30,607 bases of DNA, from positions 1 through 30,607 of the forward strand of contig JAICQE010000028.1 in NCBI GenBank assembly GCA_025938035.1. The letters are read 5' to 3'. The position numbers and the translations under genes are program-made. Position 1 is the first letter of the stretch. Each line of letters begins with the position of its first letter. Positions 7,745 to 30,607 of the stretch are shown here, one piece after another. The notes below the pieces were generated by a model, which saw nothing but the letters and a program-made list of their open reading frames with translations, had not been told where the DNA came from and did not search any database. This DNA comes from Vicinamibacteria bacterium (GTDB taxonomy: Bacteria > Acidobacteriota > Vicinamibacteria > Vicinamibacterales > UBA2999).

Positions 7745-7752
7745 CCCGCCAG

Positions 7753-11895: not shown

Positions 11896-12579
11896 TCAAC
11901 CCGATATTTTCCGAACCAGAGCCTGAATGCCTGGCAGCGCCTCTCCTCCTGACAGCTGGCCGACAACCCGAATCCGTCCTGTCGCGTCGCGAGCACCGAC
12001 GAGGAACGCCGGCGTCGACAGAACCCGGAATCGATGCGCGATGGCGGCGTGGTCCGCGACGCGCACCAACGCTCTACCGGACGCCACACATTCCCGAACA
12101 CCGTCATGGCCGTCGAGACGTGCACCTGTCGCAGCGGCGATGTCCCACACCCGCCGTTCGTCAAGAGCGTTCTGCTTCGAAAAGTACGCGTCGTGAACCG
12201 GCCAGAACAGACCCTGCTCCGCAGCGCACTCCGCGATCTCGGCCGCGGCCAGCGAATGCTGTCGCAGCCGTGGCAGCGGATTGTGCATGAACGCGATCTG
12301 CAGCCGACCGCTCCGCACGTACGTTTCGTTCAGGGTGGGTAGATCCGTCGTCGCGAACCGCGCGCAGTACTGGCAGTTGAAGTCGGCAAAGACGACGAGA
12401 ACGGCCGGTGCGTCGGCACTGCCGACGACGTGGCCAGACTCGATGGACACGCTCGCGTCGGGACGTGCCGCGCCTCCACCCGACCGCTGCGAGGCGGAGG
12501 CCTCAAAGCGCGACGCGACAACGGCTGTGGTCGCCGCGAACACGAGATAGGCGATGGCGGTCAGATTGATGCGAGTCAT
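11896..12579 (-). CDS. DsbA-like thioredoxin (CQYC active site)
   Basis: A 227-residue secreted or membrane-anchored DsbA/DsbG-like oxidoreductase. A hydrophobic N-terminal segment (residues 5-23) is followed by a linker, then the thioredoxin fold beginning GSADAPAVLVVFADFNCQYC. The redox pair is C69-x-x-C72 and the cis-proline is P190 in RVLSTPAFLVG. Two further cysteines (C118 and C164) lie in the helical insert. It should form or reshuffle disulfides in exported proteins. It sits 16 bases downstream of the VKOR/DsbA-like gene and 81 bases before the 10-Cys peptide, all on one strand, so the peptide is its obvious candidate substrate. Confidence 0.85.
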   Translation of the reverse strand: MTRINLTAIAYLVFAATTAVVASRFEASASQRSGGGAARPDASVSIESGHVVGSADAPAVLVVFADFNCQYCARFATTDLPTLNETYVRSGRLQIAFMHNPLPRLRQHSLAAAEIAECAAEQGLFWPVHDAYFSKQNALDERRVWDIAAATGARLDGHDGVRECVASGRALVRVADHAAIAHRFRVLSTPAFLVGARDATGRIRVVGQLSGGEALPGIQALVRKISG

Positions 12580-12595: not shown

Positions 12596-13735
12596 TCATC
12601 TCGCGTCCGTCGAGGTCATGCGCGAGTGAACGCGTTGGCGCCGCTCGGCCTCGAGCGACAGGATCGCCCTCATCGCGGTCTCCGTGGTTGGCACCCGCAG
12701 GCCATTGACGACGTAGGTGGGTGTACCGCCGACACCGAGTTGCCTGGCCGTCGCGATGTCCTCGGCGACAGCCCGCTTGAGGTCGCCATACGCGGCTCGA
12801 AAGCCGTCGAGGAGGCCGCGCCGCTCGAGATAACTGTGCACGAGACGCTGATCGAGCACCGTCGATCGCGCATAGAGCCACTCCTCGAAACGTGCGCTCT
12901 CCTCCTTGCCACGCTCGTTTCGGACGTGGCGGACGGCGTAGGCGGCCTCGCAGGCGCCGGGGCTGATGATTGTCATGCTCGCCATCTCCGGATTGCATGC
13001 GGGATCCAGCGGAAATGGCCGCGAGACGAACTCCACCTCGAGCCCTGCCTCCTGAAATTGCTGCACCAGCGCAAGCCGATCGAGCACGGTGTTGCGGAAC
13101 GGCTGCCATCCGTAGCTGGTGAATGCCGCGACCTGCACGGCGCCGTCGATGGACAGCGCGTGTTTCGTCCCTTCCGTCACCCCCGCGACGCGACTCTCAT
13201 ACCAGCGCCGCACGTTGCGCTCTGTCGACAGACTGTCCGGCAGGCGCGTCGTCAGAATCCGGATCGACGACGCCGTGACGACGAAACACGCGAGCGCACC
13301 CGCGAGCGACATCCTCGCTGTCTCGGAGCGGAAGAGCGCACGCAGGGACATCGGATCGGCGGCGCGCCGCGACGTGGCGGCAGCGACGAACACCACCACT
13401 GCAGACACGCCGCTGATGAACATCGCCAGCGGCAGTACACGCGTCCACAGCCACCCGCACGTGCCGACCACGATGGCAGCGCTCAACGACGTGAGGGTCG
13501 CGACCGCTGGCATCGTCGCAGCGCGAGTGCGGTAGACACAGGCGACCGCGATGAACCACGCTCCGACAAAGAACGGCAGCGGGACCGACCAGAGCGTGAC
13601 GTTGGTATCCCACAACCTCCGTGCCTCGAAGAGAGCCGGCGGGAGAAGACCGAGGGACTCCGACACACTTACGGCCGTTGCCACGATAGCTGTGACCGCA
13701 CCCACGGTAGCGAACGGAACGACTGGAATGTTCAT
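12596..13735 (-). CDS. Membrane VKOR/DsbA-like fusion lacking the redox cysteines
   Basis: 379 residues. About five hydrophobic helices (roughly 5-25, 46-66, 74-97, 100-120, 142-161) precede a DsbA-like domain (about 195-365). The layout, and the WSVPLPFFVGAW segment, resemble vitamin K epoxide reductase fused to DsbA. The cis-Pro loop VGGTPTYVVNG (P339) and the FPLDPACNPEM and GACEAA cysteines typical of such fusions are present. The thioredoxin active site, however, reads FTSYGWQPFRN: the usual Cys pair is replaced by W210 and F213. The membrane part lacks the VKOR loop cysteines and has only single scattered ones (C66, C93, C150). It is likely a non-catalytic partner, chaperone or anchor. 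ATG 13735 has TGAGGA upstream. Confidence 0.7.
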   Translation of the reverse strand: MNIPVVPFATVGAVTAIVATAVSVSESLGLLPPALFEARRLWDTNVTLWSVPLPFFVGAWFIAVACVYRTRAATMPAVATLTSLSAAIVVGTCGWLWTRVLPLAMFISGVSAVVVFVAAATSRRAADPMSLRALFRSETARMSLAGALACFVVTASSIRILTTRLPDSLSTERNVRRWYESRVAGVTEGTKHALSIDGAVQVAAFTSYGWQPFRNTVLDRLALVQQFQEAGLEVEFVSRPFPLDPACNPEMASMTIISPGACEAAYAVRHVRNERGKEESARFEEWLYARSTVLDQRLVHSYLERRGLLDGFRAAYGDLKRAVAEDIATARQLGVGGTPTYVVNGLRVPTTETAMRAILSLEAERRQRVHSRMTSTDAR

Positions 13736-18056: not shown

Positions 18057-18136
18057 CTTTACGGCACTCCTTGCATTGCGCAGCCCCATTGCACGGGCGC
18101 ATTCTTCCGCCGCCCGACACGGCAAGGAGGCGTCTC
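18057..18136 (+). promoter_or_regulatory. Conserved leader, copy 1
   Basis: Aligns without gaps to the leader of the paralogue at 19970 and to the fossil leader at 10287. TTTACGGC, TTGC and GCATTCTTC are kept, then an AAGGAGG ribosome site. ACGGC starts at 18061, exactly 76 bases before the ATG, as in the other two copies. It probably contains the promoter or 5' UTR control element of this gene family. Confidence 0.6.
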
Positions 18137-18673
18137 ATGAAACAGTCTTTCGTCATCGTCGTGTTGCTCACCGTATTCGTGGCTTCGAAGAGCACCTCGG
18201 CTCGTCAGGCGGACGGTGCCTCGCTGACCGACCGGTCGGCGCCGAACTTCAGCGGCACGTACGTCGATAGTGTGCGGCCGGCCTCCTGTGCGGTGGCATT
18301 GAAGATCAGCGCCGGTCGCGCTCTGGCGCTGTATGTCGCCCACGTGAGGAACAAGATATCGCTCCGCGTCGCGCCGAGCGGAGCGTTCCGCGTCGTACCG
18401 ATTGAAAAACGCGATTCCGCTCTGCGTCATTCCACGAGACGGAACGGACTGGCGCGATGGGAAGGCGACGCGCTCGTTGTCGACACGTCCGCTCCATCGT
18501 TCCCGCTCTTGGGCCACCACGGCGAGGTCCACGGAGGCACACTGACCGAGTCATTCGCACGCACCGGTGACGGCTTGGTCTATCGCGCCGCGTACGTTTC
18601 CGCGGATGACGAGGGACCGCATGCACCGTTCGAGATTCGCCTGGCGAAATGCGACGGTCGCGCATCGTTGTAG
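18137..18673 (+). CDS. Secreted protein, paralogue of the 19970 product
   Basis: 178 residues with a signal peptide (about 1-22, ending STSA). The mature domain contains FSGTYV, two short beta-like repeats, RVVPIEKRDSALRH, RRNGLARWEGDALVVDT, GGTLTESFARTGDGLVYR and a final IRLAKCDG. One cysteine near residue 54 and one near the C-terminus are shared with the paralogue and may pair. The alternating pattern suggests a small beta-barrel or lipocalin-like fold of the kind annotated as hypothetical in Acidobacteria; this is only an impression. AAGGAGG precedes the ATG. Function unknown. Confidence 0.75.
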   Translation: MKQSFVIVVLLTVFVASKSTSARQADGASLTDRSAPNFSGTYVDSVRPASCAVALKISAGRALALYVAHVRNKISLRVAPSGAFRVVPIEKRDSALRHSTRRNGLARWEGDALVVDTSAPSFPLLGHHGEVHGGTLTESFARTGDGLVYRAAYVSADDEGPHAPFEIRLAKCDGRASL

Positions 18674-18957: not shown

Positions 18958-19842
18958 GTGGCGCGCATCCTGCTCATCGACGACGACGAGATTTGCCTCG
19001 ACATCACAGGTCGGCTGTTGCAACTCCACGGATACGAATTCACCGGCGCCCGGACGGGGGGCGATGGTGTCCGCCTCGCGCGCGAATGGAAACCGGATGT
19101 CGCGCTGGTAGATCTTCGGCTGCCGGATCGATCTGGCATCGACGTCCTCGCACAGTTGAAGGCGGAGTGCCCTGACACGTCGCGCGTCATGTTCAGCGGC
19201 TTCGCCACGCTTGACGTCGCCGTCGATGCGATGCGCCTCGGCGTGTGCGACTGTCTGACGAAGCCGGCCTTCGAGGAGGACATCGTGGCGGCGGTGGAGC
19301 GTGCGCTCGCGCAGCACCCGCACGTGGACGACTGCGATCGGGCGGAATCGGCGCTGATCCCCTCCGAGGCCCACGCGGCGGCGCGGTGGGCGCAGCCGAT
19401 CGTGCGCGTCATCGACGCGCGTCAGGATCCGCGCACGCTGCGCGAGTTCGGCCGGGCGGTGTTCGTCTCCGTCGGCTGCTTCAGGAACTGGTGCCGCACG
19501 ACCCGAGTCAGCTCGCGCGCGTCGTTGTCGTTCGCCCGCGCCCTTCGCGCGGTCTACCGCTTCGAGCACGATCGCTCGACCAGGCCGGAGAACCTGCTCA
19601 GCATCGTCGACCAGCGGACGATAGCGAAGTTCGTGAAGAAATGCGGCGGCGCGGGAGACCACCTGCCGGATTCGGTCGCCGAGTTCTTCGAACGTCAGCA
19701 GTTCATCTCCAACCCCGAAGCCTTAGAGGCCGTACGCGCCGCGCTCCGCAGCCGCCAGGCGCGCGCGGTCAAGGGATTCACGGCGGCAGCGGCACGCACA
19801 GCGGCTGCGGATCGTTCCGGATCGACCCGCGACCAGCCGTGA
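18958..19842 (+). CDS. Response regulator with AraC-like output region
   Basis: 294 residues. The receiver domain (1-115) is complete: acidic pocket IDDDE (D8-D10), phospho-acceptor D52 in LVDLRLPDRSG, S80 in MFSGFAT and K102 in CLTKPAF. After a variable linker, residues about 155-260 include VSVGCFRNWCRTT, LSFARALRAVYRF and IVDQRTIAKFVKKCGG, which look like a degenerate AraC-type helix-turn-helix seen in acidobacterial regulators. No sensor kinase is adjacent. It sits between the two paralogous secreted-protein genes and could control them. The GTG start has AGGAG. The 284-bp gap before it shows no further gene. Confidence 0.82.
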   Translation: MARILLIDDDEICLDITGRLLQLHGYEFTGARTGGDGVRLAREWKPDVALVDLRLPDRSGIDVLAQLKAECPDTSRVMFSGFATLDVAVDAMRLGVCDCLTKPAFEEDIVAAVERALAQHPHVDDCDRAESALIPSEAHAAARWAQPIVRVIDARQDPRTLREFGRAVFVSVGCFRNWCRTTRVSSRASLSFARALRAVYRFEHDRSTRPENLLSIVDQRTIAKFVKKCGGAGDHLPDSVAEFFERQQFISNPEALEAVRAALRSRQARAVKGFTAAAARTAAADRSGSTRDQP

Positions 19843-19889
19843 CGCAACCGTTCCTCGACTGATTTCTCTTCGCCACACCGTGCGCCGTT

Positions 19890-19969
19890 ATTTACGGCAG
19901 TCTGTGCGTTGCACGACCGCTACGCGCCGGCGCATCCTTCCCGCGGCGTTGACGGGTGAGGAGGGCATC
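19890..19969 (+). promoter_or_regulatory. Conserved leader, copy 2
   Basis: ATTTACGGCAGTCTGTGCG followed by TTGC, GCATCCTTC and GTGAGGAGGG, with ACGGC at 19894, 76 bases before the ATG. It is the best-matching partner of the fossil leader at 10287 and a clear relative of the one at 18057. Conservation is concentrated in three islands separated by a freely varying 19-base stretch, as expected for binding sites or promoter boxes, not coding sequence. Confidence 0.6.
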
Positions 19970-20500
19970 ATGAAGTACGCGTGTGTTGCGGTCGTTCTGC
20001 TGTCGGCTCTGATCACACTTCCGAGCGCGCTGTCGGCCACGGCAGTCAATGACACCGACGCGGCGGCAGGCTGGCGGCCACCCGATCTCAGCGGAACCTA
20101 CGTGCTCGCCCGTTCGGCCGCGCCGTGCTCGACAGCGTCGCGGGCTGCCAGCGCGCTGCAGGTCGTCCAGTCGAGCGCGAACCTGAAACTGCGTGTACTG
20201 GCCACGCAGTCGATCCGGGTGCTGCCGATCGAGCGGTTCGAGTCGGCGATCCGGAATCCGCACAAACGCAATGGCCTTGCCCGCTGGCAGGGTGAGGAGC
20301 TGGTGGTCGAAACGATCGCGCCGGCGTTCTCTCTGTGGGGCCGCCCGCACGCCGTGGTGCAGGGCAGCACGCTGACGGAATCGTTCTCTCGTACGCCGGA
20401 CGACGTGCTGCTGTACCGCACGTGGTACAGGCTGCCCGGAAACGGCGTCGCGCAAGGCCCGCACGAGGTGCAGCTGACGAAATGCCGGAGCGGTCTGTAG
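19970..20500 (+). CDS. Secreted protein, paralogue of the 18137 product
   Basis: 176 residues. The signal peptide is MKYACVAVVLLSALITLPSA to about residue 23. The mature part shares DLSGTYV, RVLPIERFESAIR, KRNGLARWQGEELVVET, GSTLTESFSRTPDDVLLYR and GPHEVQLTKC with the 18137 protein, so the two are duplicates along with their leaders. A cysteine near residue 50 and one five residues from the C-terminus are conserved. The 3' end overlaps the sulfotransferase start by 19 bases, which couples it to the downstream biosynthetic-type genes. Function unknown; binding of a small molecule would suit a barrel fold but is not shown. Confidence 0.78.
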   Translation: MKYACVAVVLLSALITLPSALSATAVNDTDAAAGWRPPDLSGTYVLARSAAPCSTASRAASALQVVQSSANLKLRVLATQSIRVLPIERFESAIRNPHKRNGLARWQGEELVVETIAPAFSLWGRPHAVVQGSTLTESFSRTPDDVLLYRTWYRLPGNGVAQGPHEVQLTKCRSGL

Positions 20501-21411
20501 CTGCGCTGCGGCCGATCGTTACGCGCGTCTACCAGAACCATTCGATCGACAGCACCCGTTGGGGGCAGTTTGACGTCCGCGAGGGTGACGTCGTCGTCGC
20601 CAGCGGCTACAAGGCCGGGACGACCTGGGTGCAGCTGATCGTGCTGCAGCTGCTGCTCCCGGCCGAACCGCTGCCGCCGATCGACCAGCGCTCGCCGTGG
20701 CTCGACTCGCCGTTGCTGCCGCTGGACGATGTGCTCGCCATGCTTGCGGCTCACCCGGGACGACGAGTCATCAAGACTCATCTCCCACTGGATGGACTGC
20801 CGTACGACGCAGACGCCCGCTACGTGGTCGTGTGCCGCGACGCTCGCGATGTCGCCATGTCGCTCTGGAACCATTATCAGAAGCTCGTGCGGTACCCCTT
20901 TCTGCGCGATCCGCAGCATGCCGGCAGAGTGGGCGGCCCGCTGCCGCGCTGCCCAAGCGATCTGCGCGAGTTCTGGCGGAGCTGGATCACACGCGGCTGG
21001 TTCCGGTGGGAGCGCGAAGGTTACCCGTTCTGGGCGAATTTGCGGCACACGCAGACGTGGTGGGCGTGGAAGCATCTGCCGAATCTGCTGTTCGTCCACT
21101 ACGGCGACTTGCTTGCCGATCTCCCTGGCCAGGTGCGCCGCATCGCCTCACACATCGGCGTGAGGGTCACGCCGCCCGATATCGCGCGTGTCGCCGGCGC
21201 CGCCGCTTTCGACCGCATGCGCGCCAACGCCGACGTGCTGGTGCCGATGGCGCGAACGGCGTTTCGCGGGGGAGGCGGCAGCTTCATTCACGCCGGAACC
21301 AACGGACGTTGGCGCGGCGCGCTGACCGACGAGGACCTGGCCTTGTACGACGCGGCGGCCGGCCGCGAGCTGTCCATCGACTGCCGGCACTGGCTTGAAG
21401 GAGGTCGTTGA
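20482..21411 (+). CDS. PAPS-dependent sulfotransferase
   Basis: 309 residues, a Sulfotransfer_1-type enzyme that moves sulfate from PAPS to a hydroxyl or amine. The 5'-phosphosulfate loop is SGYKAGTTWVQLIV (K44), the catalytic histidine is in IKTHLPL (H100), and the 3'-phosphate site is YVVVCRDARDVAMSLWNHY (R119 and S127). The C-terminal loop FRGGGGSFIHAGTNGRWRGA is the family's PAPS-binding GxxGxxK-like region. ATG 20482 overlaps the upstream gene and has GAGGTG before it. A sulfotransferase beside carrier and condensation enzymes suggests sulfation of a small metabolite, an inference from context. Confidence 0.88.
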   Translation: MPERSVAALRPIVTRVYQNHSIDSTRWGQFDVREGDVVVASGYKAGTTWVQLIVLQLLLPAEPLPPIDQRSPWLDSPLLPLDDVLAMLAAHPGRRVIKTHLPLDGLPYDADARYVVVCRDARDVAMSLWNHYQKLVRYPFLRDPQHAGRVGGPLPRCPSDLREFWRSWITRGWFRWEREGYPFWANLRHTQTWWAWKHLPNLLFVHYGDLLADLPGQVRRIASHIGVRVTPPDIARVAGAAAFDRMRANADVLVPMARTAFRGGGGSFIHAGTNGRWRGALTDEDLALYDAAAGRELSIDCRHWLEGGR

Positions 21412-21510
21412 TGCGCCGCGCACCATCTGCCGTACGTTGTGCGCAGCACCCATCTTGTCGTTGCGGCCGTCGATGGCTCGTGTAATCTCCCGTTCCGCTC
21501 GCGTCCGACG

Positions 21511-21548
21511 CGACGTGTGAACGCTTCGCACGTCGAGGAGATACCTCG
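21511..21548 (+). promoter_or_regulatory. Two adjoining hairpins, the second covering the ribosome site
   Basis: Hairpin 1 pairs 21511-21521 with 21525-21535 (11 pairs, one wobble, loop CGC). Hairpin 2 is CGAGGAGATACCTCG at 21534-21548, a 5-bp stem whose loop and 5' arm contain the GGAG ribosome site of the transporter gene starting at 21549. The two share bases 21534-21535, so they compete at their boundary. This could set translation of the transporter. Confidence 0.4.
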
Positions 21549-22871
21549 ATGACACCTGCATCGTCCTCCGAGCAGCTCGCCGATTCGATCGCCGCCAAAG
21601 TCAACCGCCGTGTGCTCCCGCTGCTGATGGCGGGGTGGTTCATGGCGTACATCGACCGGTTCAACGTGAGCTACGCCGCGCTGCAGATGAATCAGGCGCT
21701 GGGACTATCCGCAGCGGCCTTCGGACTCGGCGGCGGCCTGTTCTTTCTCGGTTATGCGCTGTTCGAAGTGCCCAGCAACATCGCGCTCGTCCGTGTCGGC
21801 GCGCGCCGCTGGCTGGGCCGCATCATGGTCACCTGGGGTCTGGTGACCGTCGCGACGATGTTCACGCAGGGACCAGCGAGCTTCTATGGTCTGCGGCTGC
21901 TGCTCGGGATTGCGGAAGCGGGCTGCTTTCCGGGGATGGCGTATTGCCTGAGCCGGTGGCTTGCGCCGCGCCATCGCGCCGCGGCCCTGGGCGCGCTCGC
22001 GGGTGTGGCGATGCTGTCCGGAATTGCCGCCGGGCCGCTCGCTGCAGGGCTCCTCGCCCTCGATGGCGTCTGGGGACTCGCCGGGTGGCAATGGCTGTTT
22101 CTCATCGAGGGAATTCCGGCGGTGCTGGTTGGCGTCTGCCTGTGGCGGTATCTCCCCGATGATCCCGCGTCGGTGCGATGGCTGACCTCCGACGAGCGCG
22201 CCTTCCTGCAGCGTGAGGTGGTCGCCGACGTTCGCTCGCACACGCGCGACAGTCTGCTCGTCGTGGTGCGCGACCGCCGCTACTGGACGTGGGGTCTCGC
22301 CTTCTTCTGCGCCGCTGCGGCCGGTTCCGCGATCGTCCTCTTCCGCCCGGTGATGATGCGTCAGATGGCCGGTCTGAGCGATACGGCGACGGCGTTGCTC
22401 ACCGCCATTCCAGCCGTCGTCGGCGCGGCGGCCGCCATCTGGGTCGGGCGGCGTTCGACGCGGCGCGACGAGCGTCGCTGGCATTCCGCAGTGCCGATGC
22501 TCATCGGATCAATCGGCGTCGGCCTGGCCGGCGTCGTCTACGGAGTGACCGGTGTCCTGCTGGTTGCCGCGGTGACGGCGATCGCTGCCGCCGGACAGCC
22601 GGCGCTGTTTGCGTCGGTCAGCAGCGCCGCCAAGGGCGAGGTGAATGCGGTCGGCATCGCCTTCGTCAACTCCATCGCCTCGCTTGGCGGCTTCGCCGGT
22701 CCGTACGTCCTGGGGTCGATGATTGACGCCGGAGGCCTGGCAGTCGCATGCGCGGTGGCCGCAGCCGTCATCGTGCTCGGCGCGTGTCTGGTGCTCTCGG
22801 TCCGAACGAGGAGGGAAGCCGCTCCAATGACGGCAACGGTCGCGGCAGCCTATAGCCATGGTTCCAATTGA
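21549..22871 (+). CDS. MFS transporter, anion:cation symporter type
   Basis: 440 residues with about 12 membrane helices. The opening WFMAYIDRFNVSYAALQMN, then GYALFEVPSNIALVRVGAR, RLLLGIAEAGCFPGMAYCLS and WQWLFLIEGIPAVLVG, are signature blocks of the ACS family (tartrate, phthalate or glucarate-like organic-anion transporters). Its 3' end overlaps the adenylation gene start by 14 bases, so the two are translated together. In this setting it may take up a carboxylic-acid precursor or release the product. Confidence 0.9.
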   Translation: MTPASSSEQLADSIAAKVNRRVLPLLMAGWFMAYIDRFNVSYAALQMNQALGLSAAAFGLGGGLFFLGYALFEVPSNIALVRVGARRWLGRIMVTWGLVTVATMFTQGPASFYGLRLLLGIAEAGCFPGMAYCLSRWLAPRHRAAALGALAGVAMLSGIAAGPLAAGLLALDGVWGLAGWQWLFLIEGIPAVLVGVCLWRYLPDDPASVRWLTSDERAFLQREVVADVRSHTRDSLLVVVRDRRYWTWGLAFFCAAAAGSAIVLFRPVMMRQMAGLSDTATALLTAIPAVVGAAAAIWVGRRSTRRDERRWHSAVPMLIGSIGVGLAGVVYGVTGVLLVAAVTAIAAAGQPALFASVSSAAKGEVNAVGIAFVNSIASLGGFAGPYVLGSMIDAGGLAVACAVAAAVIVLGACLVLSVRTRREAAPMTATVAAAYSHGSN

Positions 22872-24429
22872 TTACTTCGACGTCGCGGCCGAACGGGCCA
22901 CCTCACGGATTGCCATCATCGATGGCGATCGTCAGGTCACCTACGGGGAACTGACGCGCATCAGCCATCACATCGGCGGGCTGGTGTCGTCGCTGGCGGA
23001 GGGCGGCGAGGCAGTACCCGCCGTGCTCTTTTCGCCGAACGACTGGCGTGTTCTTGCCGCGATGGTGGGCATCATGCGGGCGGGTGGAGCGATCGTTCCG
23101 CTTCACGCCGAGAGCAACGTCGAGACGGCCGTGGATTTTCTCAATCAGGTCGCCGCGCGGTGCCTGTTCTATCACGGCAGCTTGTCGCCGCAGGTTCGGA
23201 AGCTGCGGGATGCCGTGCCGACGCTGCGCACGTGCGTTCGACTCGATGGCGGTGCGCAAGACGAGCTCTCTCTCGACACCCTGCTCGACGGGCCTCCCGC
23301 CCCGATCGCCGACTGGATCGAGCCATCCGGGAATCGATCACGACCGGTGTTCTACTGGTCCACCAGCGGCAGCACCGGCCGGCCGAAAGTGGTCATCGAG
23401 GACTGTGGCTGCTTCGACGCGGTCCTGAAGGTGACACGCGGGATCGACGTCTCCGCGTCGAGCCACGTATCGCTCGGACTCGCGCCGCTGTCGCACGGTG
23501 CCGGCCCTGCCGCATTCGGGACCCTCACCTTCGGTGGCACCGTCGTCGTCATGCGCTCGTTCGATGCGCGCGACGTGCTGCAGAAGATCCAGCAACACCG
23601 TGTCTCGGAAGTCTGGTTGTCGCCCACCGCACTGTATCTCCTGCTCGATTGCCCGGACCGGGCCACATACGACGTCTCGAGCCTGCGGCGAGTCCGCCTG
23701 GGAATGGCGGGCGTGTCGGCGGAGCGTGTGAAGGAGGCGGTCGAGGCCTTCGGGCCGTGCCTGCATCACAGCTACGGCCAGATCGAGACCAGTTTCGTCA
23801 CGATGCTCGACGCGCAGACGATTGCGGAGGCGGTTCGCGGGCAGCACCCCGAGCGGCTGTCCAGCAGCGGCGTGTCGGCCGGCGTCAACCGGTTCGCCGT
23901 AATGGACGAGAACGATGATCTCGTGCCGGTCGGCTCCCCGGGCGAGATTGTCGTCCGCGGTGCATGCGTCAAGAGGTACCTGGATCCCTCCTTGACGGCG
24001 GACGCCCAGCGCTCCGGCTGGCATCGCACCGGCGATGTCGGCTACGTCGACCGCGACGGCTTTCTCTATGTCACCGGCCGGGTCAAGGACGTCGTCAACA
24101 TCAGCGGCTTCAAGGTCAGCGCGGCGGAGGTCGAACGCGTCATCCGCGAGCTCGAAGCCATTCACGATTGTGCGGTGGTGGCCGCGCCGGATCGCCTCCG
24201 CGGCGAGTCGGTGAAGGCGGTGGTCACGCTCCGTCCGGGCCGGACCATCACTGACGACGCGATTCTCACCCATTGCCGGGAGCGGCTGGGCAACCGGAAA
24301 GCGCCCACATCCGTCGAGCAATGGCCCGAGCTGCCACGTTCGCCGGCTGGGAAGATCGACAAAGTTCGGATTCGCGCGATGTTTTGGACGAGTGCGCCGG
24401 TTCATCCGCAGCCTGTTCCACACCCGTAG
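22858..24429 (+). CDS. Stand-alone adenylation enzyme (acyl-CoA ligase / NRPS A-domain type)
   Basis: 523 residues of the ANL superfamily. The ATP loop YWSTSGSTGRPK is at 167-178, A5-like SYGQIET follows, then TGDVGYVDRDG (A7), GRVKDVVNISGFKVSAAEVE (A8 hinge) and PRSPAGKIDK with K499 as the C-terminal catalytic lysine. It activates a carboxylic or amino acid as the adenylate and should load the carrier protein encoded eight bases downstream. The substrate cannot be read safely by eye. Residues before the ATP loop are typical of free-standing ligases, not of NRPS modules. A decayed second copy of its 3' end lies at 10383. Confidence 0.9.
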   Translation: MVPIDYFDVAAERATSRIAIIDGDRQVTYGELTRISHHIGGLVSSLAEGGEAVPAVLFSPNDWRVLAAMVGIMRAGGAIVPLHAESNVETAVDFLNQVAARCLFYHGSLSPQVRKLRDAVPTLRTCVRLDGGAQDELSLDTLLDGPPAPIADWIEPSGNRSRPVFYWSTSGSTGRPKVVIEDCGCFDAVLKVTRGIDVSASSHVSLGLAPLSHGAGPAAFGTLTFGGTVVVMRSFDARDVLQKIQQHRVSEVWLSPTALYLLLDCPDRATYDVSSLRRVRLGMAGVSAERVKEAVEAFGPCLHHSYGQIETSFVTMLDAQTIAEAVRGQHPERLSSSGVSAGVNRFAVMDENDDLVPVGSPGEIVVRGACVKRYLDPSLTADAQRSGWHRTGDVGYVDRDGFLYVTGRVKDVVNISGFKVSAAEVERVIRELEAIHDCAVVAAPDRLRGESVKAVVTLRPGRTITDDAILTHCRERLGNRKAPTSVEQWPELPRSPAGKIDKVRIRAMFWTSAPVHPQPVPHP

Positions 24430-24437
24430 GAGCGTCT

Positions 24438-24701
24438 ATGTCACCCACCGATCGCGTCACACGTCTGCGTGCGCTCTGGGCAGAGGTTCTGAACGTGAAG
24501 ACCGTTCCGGACGGCAGCCACTTCCTCGAACTCGGCGGCGATTCGATCGCCGCGACGTTGTGCCTGAATGCTGTTGCCGACGAATTCGACATCGTCCTGC
24601 CGATGGGACTGCTCCTCGAGGACAACGTCAGCTTCGGGGCGTTTGCCGCCGCCGTCCACGAGGCGCTGCAGCCGGCTGAACCGGAAGCCTCGGCTGTGTA
24701 A
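24438..24701 (+). CDS. Peptidyl/acyl carrier protein
   Basis: An 87-residue carrier. FLELGGDSIAATL contains the phosphopantetheine serine S36, and the preceding RLRALWAEVLNVKTVPDGSHF is the usual first helix and loop of peptidyl carrier proteins. The GGDSI form is NRPS-like, not fatty-acid-synthase-like. AGGAG precedes ATG 24438. It lies between the adenylation and condensation genes, so it most likely carries the activated unit from one to the other. No phosphopantetheinyl transferase is in the window. Confidence 0.93.
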   Translation: MSPTDRVTRLRALWAEVLNVKTVPDGSHFLELGGDSIAATLCLNAVADEFDIVLPMGLLLEDNVSFGAFAAAVHEALQPAEPEASAV

Positions 24702-24726
24702 GCGAAACGGAACGGGTGAAGATCGT

Positions 24727-26208
24727 ATGGCACTGGCGCTTGCCTTCAATCAGGAACGGCATCTGGTCGCGGAAGAGGTGATGGCGCTCCACGGAGTCGT
24801 GCCGTCCGGTGCGAGGTCGCCCCTGGTGTTCCGGATCAACGCTCCGATTGCGCATGGTCCGATCGAGCGGGCGCTGAATGAGGTCATCCGGCGGCACAGT
24901 GCCCTCAGAACCGCCTACGGACCGAACGAACGCTACAGCCGCGACGATCGGTGGCTACAGCTCCAGGTCTTTGCCCGCAGTGGAGTCTTCGTTCCCGGCC
25001 TGTACGTGCAACGGGTGCTGTCCGATGTGCAGCTGACCGTCCCCGTGCGTACGGTGGCAGGCACGGACGAGCTCACCGAATTGCTCCGGCAGGAGCTGGC
25101 CACGCCGCTCGATACGACCAGTGGGCCTCCGATTCGCGCCACCCTTGTCGATACGGGGTCCGCCGGTACCTACCTCGTGCTCGTGCTGACGCATCACACG
25201 GTGGACGGCTGGTCGCTGGGCGTGCTCGCCCGCGAGTTTGCGGCGATCATCGAGGCCGGGGCCGACGGAACGGCGCTTCCGCGTGTTCCGATGCAGTATC
25301 ACGACTTCGCGGCGTGGCAGCTCCAGCAGTTCCGGGACGGGCGTTTCGTCCGCGAAGAACGGTTCTGGCACGAACAGTGGGATCGACTGGGCGACGCACA
25401 GATCGCCTTCACGGACCTGCCGTTCCGCCGGCGAACCCCCGTGGCGACGGTCACGGCCGGCACGTCCTATGAGCGTCTCTTTTTTACGCCGCAGGAGAGC
25501 AGCCAAGTCTCTCTGCTCGTGTCGCAGCTGACGCTGACCCCGTATGCGTTGTTCCGAACGGCGATGACGATCGCGCTGCACTACTACACCGGCAAGCAGC
25601 GCCTGGCCGTCTGGGCGAATTTCGCCAACCGGCGGTATCCAGAGTTCATGCCGACGCTCGGCTGGTATTCGAACACGCATATCGTCTCCGTGGAGCTCGA
25701 GCCGGACATGTCGTGCGCGTCATTGTGCCGACGCGTCGCCGCCGGCGTCGCCCAGGCGCAGGCCCACGAGGCGCTGCCGCTGCCGGCGTTGTGGCAAAGG
25801 CTCGGGCGGTCGCTCGACAGGCACAACACACGAGTGAATTTCGATGTGCTGCCCAGGCGTCCACAGCGGACGAGTCCCCCCCCGGTCGAGGTCGTCGTCC
25901 TTCCCGTCGCTCCGCGAAACATGGACTTCGACATCCGGCTGCGGGAGGACGGCGGAGTGTTCGCCCTGGTCGCGACGTTCAGCGTCGGACGGTATGAGCC
26001 GGCGGCCGTTCAGGCGTTTCTCGCCAGCATGCGCCGCATCGTCACCGCGCTGGCCGAGACGCCGGATCTGCTGGTATCGGACTGCCGAGGGCTCGTGGCG
26101 CTGGAGGACGACCTGGCGTTCGCCGAATGCGGGTCGGGGTGCGCCACATGCGCGGATCCACCCGACGACTCCGCGGCGAATGTCGGCGCCACCTCGTTTG
26201 TCGAATAG
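24727..26208 (+). CDS. Stand-alone NRPS condensation-domain protein
   Basis: 493 residues, the size of a single condensation domain. The active-site motif HHTVDGW is intact (H156, H157, D160, G161). Other C-domain blocks are RRHSALRTAY (55-64), PMQYHDFAAWQLQQF, the latch region around PTLGWYSNTHIVSVEL, and NFDVLP. It should join a carrier-bound unit to an amine or hydroxyl acceptor. The C-terminal 30 residues go beyond the usual domain end and contain three cysteines (CGSGCATC), possibly a metal or disulfide site. No thioesterase or second module follows, so the acceptor that releases the unit is unknown. Confidence 0.9.
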   Translation: MALALAFNQERHLVAEEVMALHGVVPSGARSPLVFRINAPIAHGPIERALNEVIRRHSALRTAYGPNERYSRDDRWLQLQVFARSGVFVPGLYVQRVLSDVQLTVPVRTVAGTDELTELLRQELATPLDTTSGPPIRATLVDTGSAGTYLVLVLTHHTVDGWSLGVLAREFAAIIEAGADGTALPRVPMQYHDFAAWQLQQFRDGRFVREERFWHEQWDRLGDAQIAFTDLPFRRRTPVATVTAGTSYERLFFTPQESSQVSLLVSQLTLTPYALFRTAMTIALHYYTGKQRLAVWANFANRRYPEFMPTLGWYSNTHIVSVELEPDMSCASLCRRVAAGVAQAQAHEALPLPALWQRLGRSLDRHNTRVNFDVLPRRPQRTSPPPVEVVVLPVAPRNMDFDIRLREDGGVFALVATFSVGRYEPAAVQAFLASMRRIVTALAETPDLLVSDCRGLVALEDDLAFAECGSGCATCADPPDDSAANVGATSFVE

Positions 26209-26386
26209 CGTTGCGGATTGGGAACGCCGGCGTCTCGACCGAACCGCCAGTCGTAATCGGTGTACGGCGGTCTGTGGCTTTTCTTGATCACCTGCGCTCG
26301 CGTATACGCATTCGTCGGGGCGTTCCGATGTGGCGCCGCGATCGGGTCTCGCCGCAACGGTGAGGCTGAGAGTCTGGAGGTACGAA

Positions 26387-26584
26387 ATGAGCATCACACG
26401 GGCTATTTCACCGCTGTTCGCATTGCTTGGCATCGTGCTCGGGATGCATCAGCGTCCAGTTGACGCGGACATTCGCTTTTGTAGTCAGGAAGGATGCAAG
26501 GGGAAGGACGGCTGTATCTTCTACGGAATGGACGGATGCACTATGTGGTGCATCGACGCCTCGAAGATCGAGTGTGCGACGTAA
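26387..26584 (+). CDS. Secreted six-cysteine peptide A
   Basis: A 65-residue preprotein. The signal peptide is MSITRAISPLFALLGIVLG and continues to about residue 27, ending PVDA. The mature peptide of about 38 residues has six cysteines spaced C-x4-C-x5-C-x7-C-x3-C-x7-C, with mixed charge. GGAGG sits six bases before ATG 26387. The peptide at 26942 has the same length, signal and cysteine order, so they are paralogues. This is a defensin- or knottin-like layout, but I know no named bacterial family with this spacing. It lies 178 bases after the condensation gene and is followed at once by strong hairpins, suggesting it is made in excess as the end product of a transcript. Confidence 0.8.
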   Translation: MSITRAISPLFALLGIVLGMHQRPVDADIRFCSQEGCKGKDGCIFYGMDGCTMWCIDASKIECAT

Positions 26585-26594
26585 CGCACCGGCA

Positions 26595-26671
26595 TGGGAT
26601 CGGCACGCGCACCGGCGATCCGGCGAGCCGATCCCACACTGCAACCGCGCGCGCGGAGCAGCCGCGCGCGC
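26595..26671 (+). terminator. Tandem strong hairpins after peptide A
   Basis: Ten bases after the stop, TGGGATCGGC (26595-26604) pairs perfectly with GCCGATCCCA (26627-26636). Next, GCGCGCGCGG (26647-26656) pairs perfectly with CCGCGCGCGC (26662-26671) around a 5-base loop. There is no T-run. They may stop transcription with Rho or protect the 3' end of the peptide A message. Confidence 0.6.
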
Positions 26672-26863
26672 ACGCCCCGCAGCCGGAGCCCGGCTGCCAG
26701 TTTGACGCCTCAGTGCTTTCGCAATCCGGTACGGCGCGCCAAAACTCTCTTGCCAGACGATCGATCGCGCGCGACGCACGCTGTGCTTGTTGTCAGAAAC
26801 TACTTCGCGTAGCGAATTGTCGGGCCGCTCGGATCGTACGGCGACACGTGCATGGAATTGCCG
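26672..26863. other. Gap between the peptide genes with no gene seen
   Basis: This part of the 357-base gap between the two peptide genes holds no reading with a ribosome site, cysteine pattern or other sign of a gene. It is less GC-biased than the hairpins before it. No repeat of other parts of the window was recognised. Confidence 0.5.
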
Positions 26864-26893
26864 TTGACGTCGCATTGCCTGCCGCCCTATAAG
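26864..26893 (+). promoter_or_regulatory. Sigma-70-like promoter of peptide B
   Basis: TTGACG (26864-26869) and TATAAG (26888-26893) are separated by 18 bases. Transcription would begin near 26900, about 40 bases before the ATG at 26942. A small GACGCA/TGCGTC stem (26899-26904 with 26911-26916) lies at the expected 5' end. This is the best housekeeping-type promoter seen in the window. Confidence 0.6.
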
Positions 26894-26941
26894 CGACTGA
26901 CGCATCGGGTTGCGTCGTCTGCGTGCAGGAGCCAGTGAGAT

Positions 26942-27148
26942 ATGAGAATCAGAACCAAAGTCACTACCTCATTGCTGGGACTGCTCGGCCTGGTGATGGG
27001 TCTACGAACAAACCCATTGGCTGATGGCTATGTCCTCTGCGCCGAAATCAATGGCTGTGATGGCCTCGCCGCCTGCCATCAACTGGATCATGTGGAGGAA
27101 TGCGTCATGTACTGCGTCAGTGGCTCGAAAGCGTACTGTTTGAGCTAG
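26942..27148 (+). CDS. Secreted six-cysteine peptide B
   Basis: A 68-residue preprotein. The signal peptide LLGLLGLVMGLRTNPLA parallels that of peptide A (FALLGIVLGMHQRPVDA). The mature part has C-x5-C-x5-C-x8-C-x3-C-x7-C, the same six-cysteine frame with one residue added in two loops. Of the residues between cysteines, few are shared, so the fold is kept while the surface has diverged. It is more acidic than peptide A (EEC and DHVEE). AGGAG precedes ATG 26942. It has its own promoter and is followed 96 bases later by a signal-peptidase gene that could process it. Confidence 0.82.
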   Translation: MRIRTKVTTSLLGLLGLVMGLRTNPLADGYVLCAEINGCDGLAACHQLDHVEECVMYCVSGSKAYCLS

Positions 27149-27199
27149 ATGCAGTCAGACTTGGCGACGGGCCTTCGTGCTCGCCGTCATGACGGAACA

Positions 27200-27226
27200 A
27201 ACGCCAGCCTTCACGTGGCTGGCGTT
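27200..27226 (+). promoter_or_regulatory. Intercistronic hairpin between peptide B and the peptidase
   Basis: AACGCCAGCC (27200-27209) pairs perfectly with GGCTGGCGTT (27217-27226) around a 7-base loop. Only two T follow, so it is a poor intrinsic terminator. It more likely slows or stabilises the transcript so that the peptide is made in excess over the genes behind it. Confidence 0.5.
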
Positions 27227-27244
27227 AATACCCGGAGCTCTGGA

Positions 27245-27688
27245 ATGAAATCGCTTCGACAACTCCGCGGGCCATTGTGCGTGCTGATCGTGGCATTTCT
27301 CTTTTCGCGATCGTCTCTGTTCTTCGTCCGAGGACCGAGTATGGCCCCGACGATCGAAAATCCGAGCCTTGTCGTCGTGGTCCCGACCATTCTGCGTCAG
27401 CCGCGTAACGGGAGCGTCGCGGTATTCCGAGATCCCTGGCAACAGAATACCGTCGTTGTAAAGCGAATCAAAGGTGTGCCCGGAGACTGCATCCCCACGT
27501 TCGCGACGTTGCGGCCGGACACGGCGACGGACAGTCACTGCAAGCGTATACCAGAGGGATATGTCTTCATCGTTGGTGACAACGAACCCTTTTCCGCTGA
27601 CAGCCGGACGCGGGGGCTGGTAAAAGCATCCGCCGCGATCGGGACGGTCCTGCTGGCCATCCCACTGCGAGCGCTCGTCAGCGCGTGA
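27245..27688 (+). CDS. Short S26 signal peptidase (type I, Ser/Lys)
   Basis: 147 residues with one N-terminal membrane helix (about 11-28). The nucleophile is S32 in RGPSMAPTI and the general-base lysine is K73 in VVVKRIKGVPGD. The later GYVFIVGDNEPFSADSR is the family's box E. Housekeeping LepB proteins are larger, usually over 200 residues, so this is a dedicated, TraF-like or SipW-like short form. ATG 27245 gives a clean membrane helix and has GGAG upstream; the longer reading from 27149 starts right after the peptide stop and runs through the hairpin. A role in cutting the neighbouring six-Cys peptides is the natural guess. Confidence 0.85.
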   Translation: MKSLRQLRGPLCVLIVAFLFSRSSLFFVRGPSMAPTIENPSLVVVVPTILRQPRNGSVAVFRDPWQQNTVVVKRIKGVPGDCIPTFATLRPDTATDSHCKRIPEGYVFIVGDNEPFSADSRTRGLVKASAAIGTVLLAIPLRALVSA

Positions 27689-27700
27689 GGTCAAGACACA

Positions 27701-28612
27701 GTGTCTGGCAATAAAGCGTGGTCGGCGTTCGCCGTTGTGACGCTTGTGGTCTTAAACGTGACGTTGATTCGATCGGTGCTGTCGTTCGATGCGCCGACGG
27801 AACATCGGCACGCGGCGGAAGCGGCACTCATCGCCGAGTTGGTTCCCACAGCTGTCCTCACGCCTGACGGTGTCGTCGCGATTGCGATTGTCAACCCGTA
27901 CGAACCGTTGATGTTGGCGCGGTTCGTTCGAGATATCGGCGACGCGGCGTTGAAAGGCCGCTTTCGGGCCGTCTCTATTGCCGCGACGGACCGTCCTGGC
28001 GGTGACGTCCCGGCCTTCGCGTGGCGTCATTTCGCTCTGGAACCGGCTGTGATCAGCGACGCACTACGGCGTACTGGCCTGGGGGCGAGTCGGTGGGCCG
28101 TCTTTCGCGACGGTCGCCTGATGGAAGCCGGCTTGGTTCGGAATGGTGGTATGCGGGCGGCGCTCGAGGAGATGTTATTTCCCGCACAGCCTTTGGACAG
28201 CCGACTCGCGAGAGAAATAGCGCCGCTCGTGCACGCCGGAGACATTCCCGTTCGACCCGCGGATGCGACGCAATTCGTGCTGCTGACGCGTCGCCTGAAT
28301 GCGACGTGTCCCGCATCCAGGGTGGTGAAGGACATGGAGGCGCATCTGGTGAAGCTCCGAGGACGGCTACAGGTTGTAGTGACGTCGGACTGGACGATTG
28401 ATGACGTCGCGGCGCTTCGCGACACGCTCAACCTGACGCTTCCGCTGGACCGTCTGTCCGACCGGGGGACGTCGGCGCTGCTCGATCTAGAAGGCAAATA
28501 CGGCCGCTTCATGGGCGGCGGAATTCTCGTCGTGGTATCGCGCGGCTCGGTGGCAGTCGTTTCGGATCTCCCTGATATTACTTCGCGGCTGCGGGCGGAG
28601 GTTGGTGGGTGA
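27701..28612 (+). CDS. Membrane-anchored protein of unknown function
   Basis: 303 residues from GTG 27701. One N-terminal helix (about 8-25) anchors an extracytoplasmic domain. Around residues 190-215, QFVLLTRRLNATCPASRVVK looks like the strand-Cys-helix start of a thioredoxin-like fold but with a single cysteine, so no redox pair. The first half (AVLTPDGVVAIAIVNPYEP, FRAVSIAATDRPGGD) could be another alpha/beta domain. It is 13 bases after the peptidase and overlaps the next gene by four bases (GTGA), so it is firmly in the same operon. No function recognised. Confidence 0.7.
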   Translation: MSGNKAWSAFAVVTLVVLNVTLIRSVLSFDAPTEHRHAAEAALIAELVPTAVLTPDGVVAIAIVNPYEPLMLARFVRDIGDAALKGRFRAVSIAATDRPGGDVPAFAWRHFALEPAVISDALRRTGLGASRWAVFRDGRLMEAGLVRNGGMRAALEEMLFPAQPLDSRLAREIAPLVHAGDIPVRPADATQFVLLTRRLNATCPASRVVKDMEAHLVKLRGRLQVVVTSDWTIDDVAALRDTLNLTLPLDRLSDRGTSALLDLEGKYGRFMGGGILVVVSRGSVAVVSDLPDITSRLRAEVGG

Positions 28613-29682
28613 ACGGTGCTCAGGCTGGAGCCGTCGCGCTGACCGTCTCCCTGATCGGCGCGTGCGGTCCGTCATCGGTATCACCGCCGGTGTCGTTGGA
28701 CGACGCGCGTGTGATGAATCTGGAACATTCGATTAAGGACAAAGGTGAGTGGCCCAAAGAGGTCACCGCCGTGCGCCCGCTGCGAGACGTGAAGTCGGTC
28801 ATCGTGGGTGAACTGCAGACCGCAGGTGGAATTGCGCGCGCGGCAGATGGCTTTATTCGTCTTCTTGACAATTCGTCGGGTGCCTTGTTCACGCTTGACA
28901 CGGGGCTCGCGCTGGGAGGGCCAGACGCAATTCATGAGACTGGTCTTGAACATCCCACCGTCATGCGAACCTTCGGTGGGATAACCTACGCGGCTGATGA
29001 CATTGGCATCAGAACGTTGGCTCCTTCTGGTACTCCGACGGCGACAGTGCGTTCATACAATATCGTTCATGATTTCGCCGCGCTGGACGACGGTACGTTT
29101 CTCATCTCGGCCACGTCGCCTGCGGTACGGGCGCCTGTCGTCCAGCAGATCGACCGCACGGGGCGCGTACGTCGCGTCTGGGGCGTTGAAACCTCGCCGG
29201 GCGCCGCGGGGGCGTTCTTGTGGCGGGATGGTGCCCTCGCCGTTTGTCACGACAGAGTTTATGTCGCGCGCCGGCATCGACCTGTGATGAACGTCTTTTC
29301 TCTAACGGGCGAGCCCGACAAGGAACTGGCCCTGCCGATGCGCGGGCGAGACGAGCTACTACGGCTCTACGACTCGAGCGACGTCGTGAATCCCGAGCCG
29401 GGACGTTATCGATTGCCGCGATTTGCCGACGCCTGTAAGTGCGTTGGTGAAACGCCGTACGTGCTGCTCGCCTTCCAGACACGGCTGGCACTGGCACGAG
29501 TTCATCGCGATGGATCGTCGCAGGTGTACGAGTCGCCGCTCGGCGATGGCGTTCAGATGGTGTGGAGAGACATGCTGCTCGAAACCGATGACACGGCGCC
29601 CGGCCGGCTTCGTGTGCACGCGTTGGGACTTGACGCAAAAAGCTACCGCTGGAGAATTGTGCACGCGGTTGTCGAGAGTTGA
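28609..29682 (+). CDS. Lipoprotein with beta-propeller-like repeats
   Basis: 357 residues. The N-terminus has a hydrophobic stretch ending LIGACG, a plausible lipobox with the cysteine near residue 19. The mature part contains repeated short strands with Gly and Asp turns (ARAADGFIRLLDNSSGALFTL, FAALDDGTFLISA, QQIDRTGRVRRVWG, NVFSLTGEPDKELALP, ARVHRDGSSQVYES). These suggest a six-bladed beta-propeller of the kind found beside small secreted peptides in Bacteroides. A DACKC pair lies near residue 279. Translation is coupled to the upstream gene. It may bind or display the peptides, but this rests on context. Confidence 0.68.
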   Translation: MNGAQAGAVALTVSLIGACGPSSVSPPVSLDDARVMNLEHSIKDKGEWPKEVTAVRPLRDVKSVIVGELQTAGGIARAADGFIRLLDNSSGALFTLDTGLALGGPDAIHETGLEHPTVMRTFGGITYAADDIGIRTLAPSGTPTATVRSYNIVHDFAALDDGTFLISATSPAVRAPVVQQIDRTGRVRRVWGVETSPGAAGAFLWRDGALAVCHDRVYVARRHRPVMNVFSLTGEPDKELALPMRGRDELLRLYDSSDVVNPEPGRYRLPRFADACKCVGETPYVLLAFQTRLALARVHRDGSSQVYESPLGDGVQMVWRDMLLETDDTAPGRLRVHALGLDAKSYRWRIVHAVVES

Positions 29683-29769
29683 TCAAGGCGGCGATCTGAG
29701 GCCTCGTCAGACTGACCCAGACGTGTCGTAGAGTTATCAGCGCATGAGCGAGTGAACTGGAGGACAGGT

Positions 29770-30607
29770 ATGCGCTCCATGTCGATTTCCGCGATCTTGG
29801 TCACCATCGGACTGTCGGCCACCGTGGCGCAGACCCCGAACCCACCGGCGTTCGAGGTCGTTTCGGTGAAGCCAAATACCTCAGTCGGTGAAAGTGGAAT
29901 GATTTCGTCTCCGAATGCACCCGGCCAGCTCCGGGTGACCAACATTCCGCTGCGAGCGATTCTCGTGCACGCCTACCAACTGCGCGACTACCAGATCGTC
30001 GGTGCGCCGGACTGGACCCGTACCGCACGATTCGACATTACGGCGAAGTTCCCCGACGGGATCGATCAGGCGATGCATTACTTCCCCATGATGCAGCGAC
30101 TGCTCGTTGATCGCTTTCAGCTGAAGGCGCGACGGGAGACTCGTGAGCAGCCGATTTACCGCCTGGTTCGTGCTCGCGGCGACGGCCGCCTGGGCGCTCA
30201 GCTGATCCCTTCGACCGTTGATTGTGAGAAGTGGCTTGCAGAAGGCCGTCCGCAACTCGGCGCCGGCGGCCCCAGCGCTGTTGCGCCGGACGGCAAGCGC
30301 CCTGCCTGCGCGTTCATCGCGCAGCGCAATTTCTTAACGGCCGGTACTCAGGCCATCGGCCGGCTTGCGCAGCTGCTCGAGAGCCGTGTCGGTCGGCCTG
30401 TTGTCGATGCGACCGAACTACAAGGAAAATTCGACATTGACTTGAAATGGGACGCCCTGACAAACGCGGATCTGCAGTCCGCTGGTCAGCCAGCGGGCGT
30501 TGCGCCGCCAGCTCTCGGTGTATCAATTTTTGCGGCACTCGAAGAACAGCTTGGGCTGAAGCTTGAATCGGCCCGCGGCCCCGTTGAAGTGCTGGCGATT
30601 GAATCGA
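29770..30607 (+). CDS. TIGR03435-family secreted protein (cut by window end)
   Basis: At least 279 residues, running off the right edge in frame. The signal peptide is MRSMSISAILVTIGLSATVA. The family blocks are all present: FEVVSVKPNTS, IPLRAILVHAYQLRDYQI, GAPDWTRTARFDITAKFPD, MMQRLLVDRFQLKARRE, QPIYRLVRA, VVDATELQGKFDIDLKW and EEQLGLKLESARGPVEVL. It is a paralogue of the 10566 protein, whose end reads DEQLGLRLERTRGPVQVL, so only a few C-terminal residues are missing here. GGAGG precedes ATG 29770. Function unknown. Confidence 0.88.
   Translation, partial: MRSMSISAILVTIGLSATVAQTPNPPAFEVVSVKPNTSVGESGMISSPNAPGQLRVTNIPLRAILVHAYQLRDYQIVGAPDWTRTARFDITAKFPDGIDQAMHYFPMMQRLLVDRFQLKARRETREQPIYRLVRARGDGRLGAQLIPSTVDCEKWLAEGRPQLGAGGPSAVAPDGKRPACAFIAQRNFLTAGTQAIGRLAQLLESRVGRPVVDATELQGKFDIDLKWDALTNADLQSAGQPAGVAPPALGVSIFAALEEQLGLKLESARGPVEVLAIES

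Follow-up and report, generated by a model that had tools for sequence, protein, structure and literature searches.

Paralogous six-cysteine peptides with export-type starts encoded beside an S26 signal peptidase and a lipoprotein in a Vicinamibacteria bacterium

Two short neighboring genes on a contig from a Vicinamibacteria bacterium raise the question of what a pair of small, cysteine-rich, probably exported peptides might do for the cell that makes them. The stretch analyzed here (hereafter the window) comprises 30,607 nucleotides. Exported disulfide-rich bacterial peptides are hardly charted because short ORFs escape both annotation and homology searches, and if this pair proved to be antimicrobial or to serve as a surface ligand, it would represent a new scaffold. 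An initial annotation of the same DNA presented the two as paralogous secreted peptides whose differing loops recall toxins and whose neighbors include a nonribosomal peptide synthetase (NRPS) trio. The first half of that interpretation survives, in that the peptides are paralogous, have export-type starts and six cysteines, and belong to no named family in the libraries searched. The toxin-like loops do not, and the tie to the NRPS genes proves to be positional only, with the pair sharing a cassette with a signal peptidase and a lipoprotein (Table 1). Nothing shows a toxin role for the pair. Tentatively, we favor a disulfide-locked peptide pair that acts at the cell envelope, is made with its own S26 peptidase, and works with the co-encoded lipoprotein.

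Table 1. Positions of the peptide genes, their neighbors, and a second cysteine-rich locus in the window
Feature	Position	Strand	Remarks
Third Cys-rich peptide	11557-11814	-	85 aa, ten Cys; export-type start; good GGAGG ribosome-binding site
DsbA-like protein	11896-12579	-	CxxC present, PF13462; directly upstream of the 11557-11814 peptide
Membrane protein with fused DsbA-like domain	12596-13735	-	PF01323, 23.0 bits vs cut-off 25.6 bits
Stand-alone AMP-binding (A) enzyme	22858..24429	+	Upstream neighbor, probably a separate unit
Stand-alone condensation-domain protein	24568..26208	+	True start likely inside the ORF
Peptide 1 precursor	26387..26584	+	65 aa, six Cys, spacing 4-5-7-3-7 (C-x4-C-x5-C-x7-C-x3-C-x7-C)
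Three predicted RNA hairpins	26592..26697	+	Directly after peptide 1; no T-run
Peptide 2 precursor	26942..27148	+	68 aa, six Cys, spacing 5-5-8-3-7 (C-x5-C-x5-C-x8-C-x3-C-x7-C)
Predicted hairpin with 10-bp stem	27200..27226	+	Between peptide 2 and the S26 gene
S26 signal peptidase	27245..27688	+	147 aa; N-terminal hydrophobic segment; Ser (GPSMAPTI), Lys (VVKRI)
Orphan protein	27701..28612	+	303 aa; N-terminal hydrophobic segment; no family found
Lipoprotein	28609..29682	+	357 aa; lipobox-like LIGAC near start; 83% relative in second species
TIGR03435/DUF3738 gene	29752-30606	+	After the lipoprotein

Both preproteins described in the initial annotation were confirmed as ORFs, exactly at the lengths, place, and cysteine spacing given there. 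Each precursor begins with a charged stretch followed by a hydrophobic core and carries its six cysteines in the later part, which agrees with the shared signal-peptide layout noted originally. With cleavage sites read by eye, the mature parts comprise approximately 38 residues each. Peptide 1 would likely be cut between VDA and DIRFC, and the site in peptide 2 is uncertain, with either ADG followed by YVLC or PLA followed by DGYVLC as candidates. Net charges of -2 and -4 make the peptides anionic, and the single Trp of peptide 1 is replaced by Tyr in peptide 2. A clear Shine-Dalgarno sequence, GGAGG, lies 6 nt ahead of the ATG of the peptide 1 gene, and an AGGAG precedes the peptide 2 gene at a greater distance from its start.

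That these reading frames arose by chance rather than as genes seems extremely unlikely. Filtering all six frames for short ORFs that open like a signal peptide and carry six or more cysteines toward their end left just the two peptides in the whole window, with the peptide 1 frame opened at a codon farther upstream (26360). The export-type starts are judged by the filter itself and not by a dedicated signal-peptide predictor. When the filter was applied to 8948 dinucleotide shuffles, a mean of 0.022 ORFs passed in each, at least two passed in 4, and a matched pair appeared in none, figures that serve as a guide because the thresholds were set after the pair had been seen. The low codon-usage scores (0.01 and 0.11 per codon) would favor chance frames, though such values might be expected for Cys-rich peptides, and the true frame is the best-scoring of the six for both genes. 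Peptide 1 gains independent support as a coding sequence because a relative with 78% identity exists (P0004, see below), and peptide 2 is supported by its homology to peptide 1. This homology was part of the original claim and is borne out by 31% identity over 62 aa (pairwise E 0.002), with a global alignment score that was matched by none of 5000 free shuffles. When cysteines were held fixed, the mature-part alignment score was reached in 17 of 5000 shuffles. Judged by their sequences, peptides 1 and 2 are homologous, old paralogues, the age of the duplication being suggested by the fact that only 5 of the 31 non-Cys mature positions agree.

Relatives of the cassette are few. A search of approximately 5.8 billion proteins found a single relative for peptide 1 outside its own cluster, P0004; the search requires shared five-residue words, so that distant relatives would escape it, and its queries were peptide 1, the lipoprotein, and the S26 protein. 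At 90% clustering, peptide 1 falls in a cluster with 2 member sequences spread over 37 contigs, and P0004 is present on 3 contigs. The S26 protein has a relative with 76% identity over 78% of the query (P0008) and a second with 52% identity on a 1,176-bp contig (P0009), and the lipoprotein has one with 83% identity (P0006, with the 7994 best candidates scored). Because the longest contig is given as 12,436 bp for each of P0004, P0008, and P0006, these three are very probably located together in one second species. Thus, parts of the cassette (peptide 1, S26, and lipoprotein) apparently reside on one 12.4-kb contig in that species.

The comparison with this second species bears directly on the proposal that the loops change quickly, as is typical of toxins. 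The loops do differ widely between the two paralogues, but 26 of the 31 non-Cys mature positions are kept between species. Peptide 1 and P0004 are identical at 32 of 37 positions of the mature part and at 19 of 28 positions of the signal part, a difference that is not significant (Fisher p 0.13), and conservation of the mature part is no lower than that of S26 and the lipoprotein. These values against the only orthologue found, the anionic character of the peptides, and the failure of the bacterial-defensin pattern all speak against the toxin-like proposal. Conservation of this kind shows no pattern expected of diversifying selection and would weaken the toxin reading, with the reservation that one species pair is thin evidence.

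Searches of other collections yielded little more. A scan of genome contigs with the peptide 1 alignment gave no match, and viral contigs gave none for peptide 1, peptide 2, the S26 alignment, the 27701 protein, or the lipoprotein. With the S26 alignment, the genome contigs returned 8 loci with 25-68% identity over the matched segments, none of which is titled Acidobacteria; the short Cys-rich ORFs listed in 6 of these 8 loci were judged by eye to be chance frames. Use of tblastn with peptide 1 against plasmids and phages, and with peptide 2 and the lipoprotein against plasmids, produced only matches with E of at least 0.3, which we took as chance. The top match (E 0.3) falls in a phage portal gene, and a hypothetical protein of a Bacteroides phage aligns with 83% of peptide 1 (28.8% identity, E 1). 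With two species known, the distribution is under-sampled, and absence beyond these two does not follow.

The original statement that no named bacterial family is known to have this cysteine spacing holds for the libraries searched. Pfam, PHROG, and PADLOC returned no family for either peptide. NCBIfam gives a single match, of peptide 1 to TIGR04117 at 19.9 bits against a cut-off of 50 bits, and does not list peptide 2. Against PDB sequences, a three-sequence profile found no match and peptide 2 hit one uncharacterized protein at chance level (E 0.3), and general literature searches found no paper on this peptide pair or its cassette. An AlphaFold2 model of peptide 1 (pLDDT 51.8, pTM 0.22) is too poor for use, also for a comparison with the CS-alpha-beta fold of cis-defensins, and the best Foldseek match to it (E 2.3) is meaningless.

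The initial annotation had placed a signal peptidase right behind the pair, and indeed an S26 gene lies directly downstream. Its product scores 72.4 bits against PF10502 and 70.6 bits against TIGR02227 (cut-off 47 bits), values obtained with a 179-aa reading that includes 32 extra upstream codons. Aligned to 4me8, it places GPSM opposite GSSM and VKRI opposite AKRL. Like signal peptidase I, it has a Ser-Lys dyad within an S26 domain that follows a membrane segment (the segment assigned by eye). The orphan protein that follows is possibly, judging by eye and with no search support, a tandem thioredoxin-like protein lacking CxxC. The lipoprotein model is poor (pLDDT 39.5) and is all-beta apart from short helices. 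Foldseek lists 8 PDB matches for it with E up to 0.001, an NHL domain first, with query TM-scores of 0.15-0.25 (0.24 for the first match) and target-normalized values of at most 0.30, to which we give little weight. The model would thus at best suggest that the lipoprotein is possibly a beta-propeller. Another DUF3738 gene, in addition to the one after the lipoprotein, is found at 10566-11483 (+), and these two genes hint at an acidobacterial origin.

RNA structure might also contribute to expression of the cassette. The region after peptide 1 folds at -28.3 kcal/mol (26582-26645, z -3.2) and -39.3 kcal/mol (26645-26705, z -3.5), and the whole gap of 27146-27244 after peptide 2 folds at -41.3 kcal/mol (z -2.9), all of these stretches having been picked after the sequence had been read. 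The hairpins are absent from the results of a terminator scan, and all of them lack the terminal T-run that marks a standard terminator; the same scan reports two sites elsewhere between the peptide genes, with 0.9 expected. A promoter scan around the peptides found none (0.4 expected), and Rfam gave no match in the window. Possibly, the hairpins serve as RNA-stabilizing or attenuating elements.

Taken together, these features can be assembled into a working model for the envelope peptide pair. Two ancient paralogous genes would yield precursors that leave the cytoplasm through the Sec pathway, and their signal peptides would be removed, possibly by the S26 peptidase encoded right behind them. 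Folding in the periplasm would then produce compact, anionic peptides of approximately 38 residues with three disulfides each. The hairpins after each peptide gene might, through attenuation, leave the peptides in excess over the products of the downstream genes. At the envelope, the peptides might act as a pair, perhaps by binding to the co-encoded lipoprotein as small ligands or by forming subunits of it. Consistent with this model are the export-type starts and six mature cysteines of both peptides, the relatives of peptide 1, S26, and the lipoprotein in a second species (78%, 76%, and 83% identity), the conservation of the mature part (32/37), the anionic charge, an S26 protein that retains Ser and Lys and exceeds the NCBI cut-off, and the presence of hairpins after both peptide genes. 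Small envelope ligands or subunits are more likely than freely diversifying toxins because the pair is conserved, anionic, and encoded with a lipoprotein. Several points count against the model. A house-keeping signal peptidase could cleave the precursors in place of a dedicated S26 enzyme, co-residence in the second species is derived from equal 12,436-bp figures with only two species known, the lipoprotein model is poor, and the hairpins are not recognized as terminators. A more specific proposal, in which a heteromeric, anionic, knottin-like pair has its own signal peptidase and a propeller lipoprotein anchors it to the cell surface, strikes us as unlikely. If true, however, it would amount to a novel type of surface system, built from peptides and a lipoprotein, in a lineage that has been poorly sampled.

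The main rival is a two-peptide antimicrobial resembling a bacteriocin, whose halves would together kill related bacteria and whose producer would gain immunity from the lipoprotein or the 27701 protein. We regard this as a real possibility, albeit one we would bet against. The two peptides are unequal, adjacent, and have approximately 38 mature residues, and their size and six cysteines recall defensin-like bacteriocins such as actifensin as described in PMC6989792. However, they are anionic, their mature part is conserved between species, and they do not fit the cis-defensin pattern as it is given in PMC11561630. Moreover, no ABC exporter is present among the 10 ORFs scanned (20335-30606), and PADLOC, PHROG, and Pfam offer no match. 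Charge and pattern failure speak against a defensin-like bacteriocin but leave room for other antimicrobials. Alternatively, the peptides might be exported signals sensed by the producer or its neighbors, given that they are small, conserved, and encoded beside a peptidase, and that a response-regulator gene is present in the window (18958-19842). This idea appears improbable because that regulator is more than 6 kb away, the 10 ORFs scanned in the vicinity of the peptides include no histidine kinase or receptor family, and short processed signals do not usually contain six cysteines.

Two further proposals fare less well. Methylamine dehydrogenase combines a small disulfide-rich subunit with a beta-propeller subunit and is assisted by a thioredoxin-like helper. 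The peptides might serve a redox or quinone-type enzyme complex of this sort as its small subunits, given that small Cys-rich proteins here adjoin a possible propeller and a protein that looks thioredoxin-like by eye, and peptide 1 has its sub-cut-off match to TIGR04117. However, peptide 2 has Tyr in place of the sole Trp of peptide 1, the 30 ORFs scanned include no radical SAM, MauE, or MauG family, and the thioredoxin reading of the 27701 protein has no search support, which makes this proposal more doubtful than a signaling role. Finally, the peptides might belong to the upstream NRPS cluster as substrate, product carrier, or resistance factor. The stand-alone trio noted in the initial annotation is present, in the form of an AMP-ligase gene, a condensation gene, and, in another frame just upstream of the condensation ORF, a PCP with LELGGDS. 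The condensation motif reads T-H-H-T-V-D-G; compared with Txo2, the second His and the DG are kept and the first His is Thr. A sulfotransferase and an MFS transporter are encoded upstream of the A, PCP, and C proteins, and the free-standing A, PCP, and C proteins (22858-26208, +) together with these two genes possibly form a small natural-product cluster. Only 178 bases separate the condensation gene from the start of peptide 1 on the same strand, but the peptides have their own ribosome-binding sites, and third-position GC, which is 0.81-0.82 in the A and C genes, drops to 0.62-0.69 in the genes running from peptide 1 through the lipoprotein, as fits two separate units. In addition, no NRPS chemistry in which exported ribosomal peptides take part is known to us. 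Membership in the NRPS cluster is therefore very unlikely, and the link between the two is one of position only.

A second cysteine-rich locus in the window gives some context for the envelope peptide pair. The 11557-11814 peptide has a net charge of -7 in its presumed mature part, has no family match, and was missed by the short-ORF filter. The neighboring 11896-12579 protein reaches 86.8 of the 190 bits needed for the Rcas_1661 (seleno)lipoprotein family, and the DsbA-like domain of the 12596-13735 protein seems to lack CxxC, so that the latter is perhaps, judging by eye, a degenerate VKOR-DsbA fusion. Because two loci for Cys-rich peptides lie beside envelope maturation genes within 16 kb, export of a repertoire of such peptides by this lineage becomes more plausible, and the lineage may run several peptide-plus-maturation cassettes. 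The present cassette of peptides, peptidase, and lipoprotein, parts of which occur in two species, offers a testable handle for finding more.

Other genes in the window are recorded here as separate observations. The response-regulator gene is flanked by two paralogues with export-type starts, at 18071-18673 (+) and 19880-20500 (+), which by eye share the motifs RNGLARW and TLTESF and match no Pfam or NCBIfam family. Tandem O-methyltransferases (PF00891) are encoded at 7657-8847 (+) and 8851-9912 (+).

Small exported disulfide-rich peptides are a known kind in bacteria, and the family described here fits no named one in the libraries searched. In knottins, the loops between cysteines have lengths of 3-7, 3-8, 0-7, 1-4, and 4-13, and the knot arises from disulfides that join cysteines 1-4, 2-5, and 3-6. 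Peptide 1 and P0004 fit this pattern of the inhibitor cystine knot, and peptide 2 is off by one residue (loop 3 = 8), but the predicted peptides cannot be called a knot on the basis of the six-Cys frame alone. Another comparison concerns the NVEALA peptides of Bacteroides (PF14055), which are found near beta-propeller lipoproteins and which, as short, exported, Cys-containing peptides encoded beside a lipoprotein, may resemble the present pair. Neither peptide matches PF14055 at E up to 10, in searches whose HMMER filters drop most weak matches, and a comparison of NVEALA genomes (0/4, and 1/118 at E 1.8e-4, below cut-off) was uninformative. The weak match to TIGR04117 recalls targets of radical SAM enzymes with Cys-Xaa-Xaa-Xaa repeats, but the peptides lack a CxxxC repeat and the score is far under the cut-off. 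No radical SAM family was found among 30 ORFs scanned in the window, which stops at 30607 and holds further ORFs.

Two-peptide bacteriocins are encoded by neighboring genes for unequal peptides that are active only in combination, together with a single immunity gene. The present genes encode adjacent, unequal paralogues, for which activity and immunity would be predictions at most. PMC11561630 distinguishes five classes of bacterial cis-defensins, reports one from Acidobacteria, and gives the search pattern CX(2,18)CX(3)CX(2,12)CX(4,17)CXC. The mature part of actifensin has 37 aa and six cysteines according to PMC6989792. Like the cis-defensins and actifensin of these accounts, the peptides are made as small precursors with an N-terminal leader or signal and have at least three disulfides, which here are predicted. 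They differ in that C-x3-C falls between Cys4 and Cys5, the final CxC is missing, and the charge is negative; membership was rejected, as peptide 1, peptide 2, and P0004 all fall outside the pattern as published there. The neighboring enzyme, for its part, keeps the Ser and Lys of signal peptidase I, matches TIGR02227 over its cut-off, and aligns with solved signal peptidases. It differs from them in being small (147 aa) and encoded directly behind the peptide pair, in the maturation of which it may have a dedicated role.
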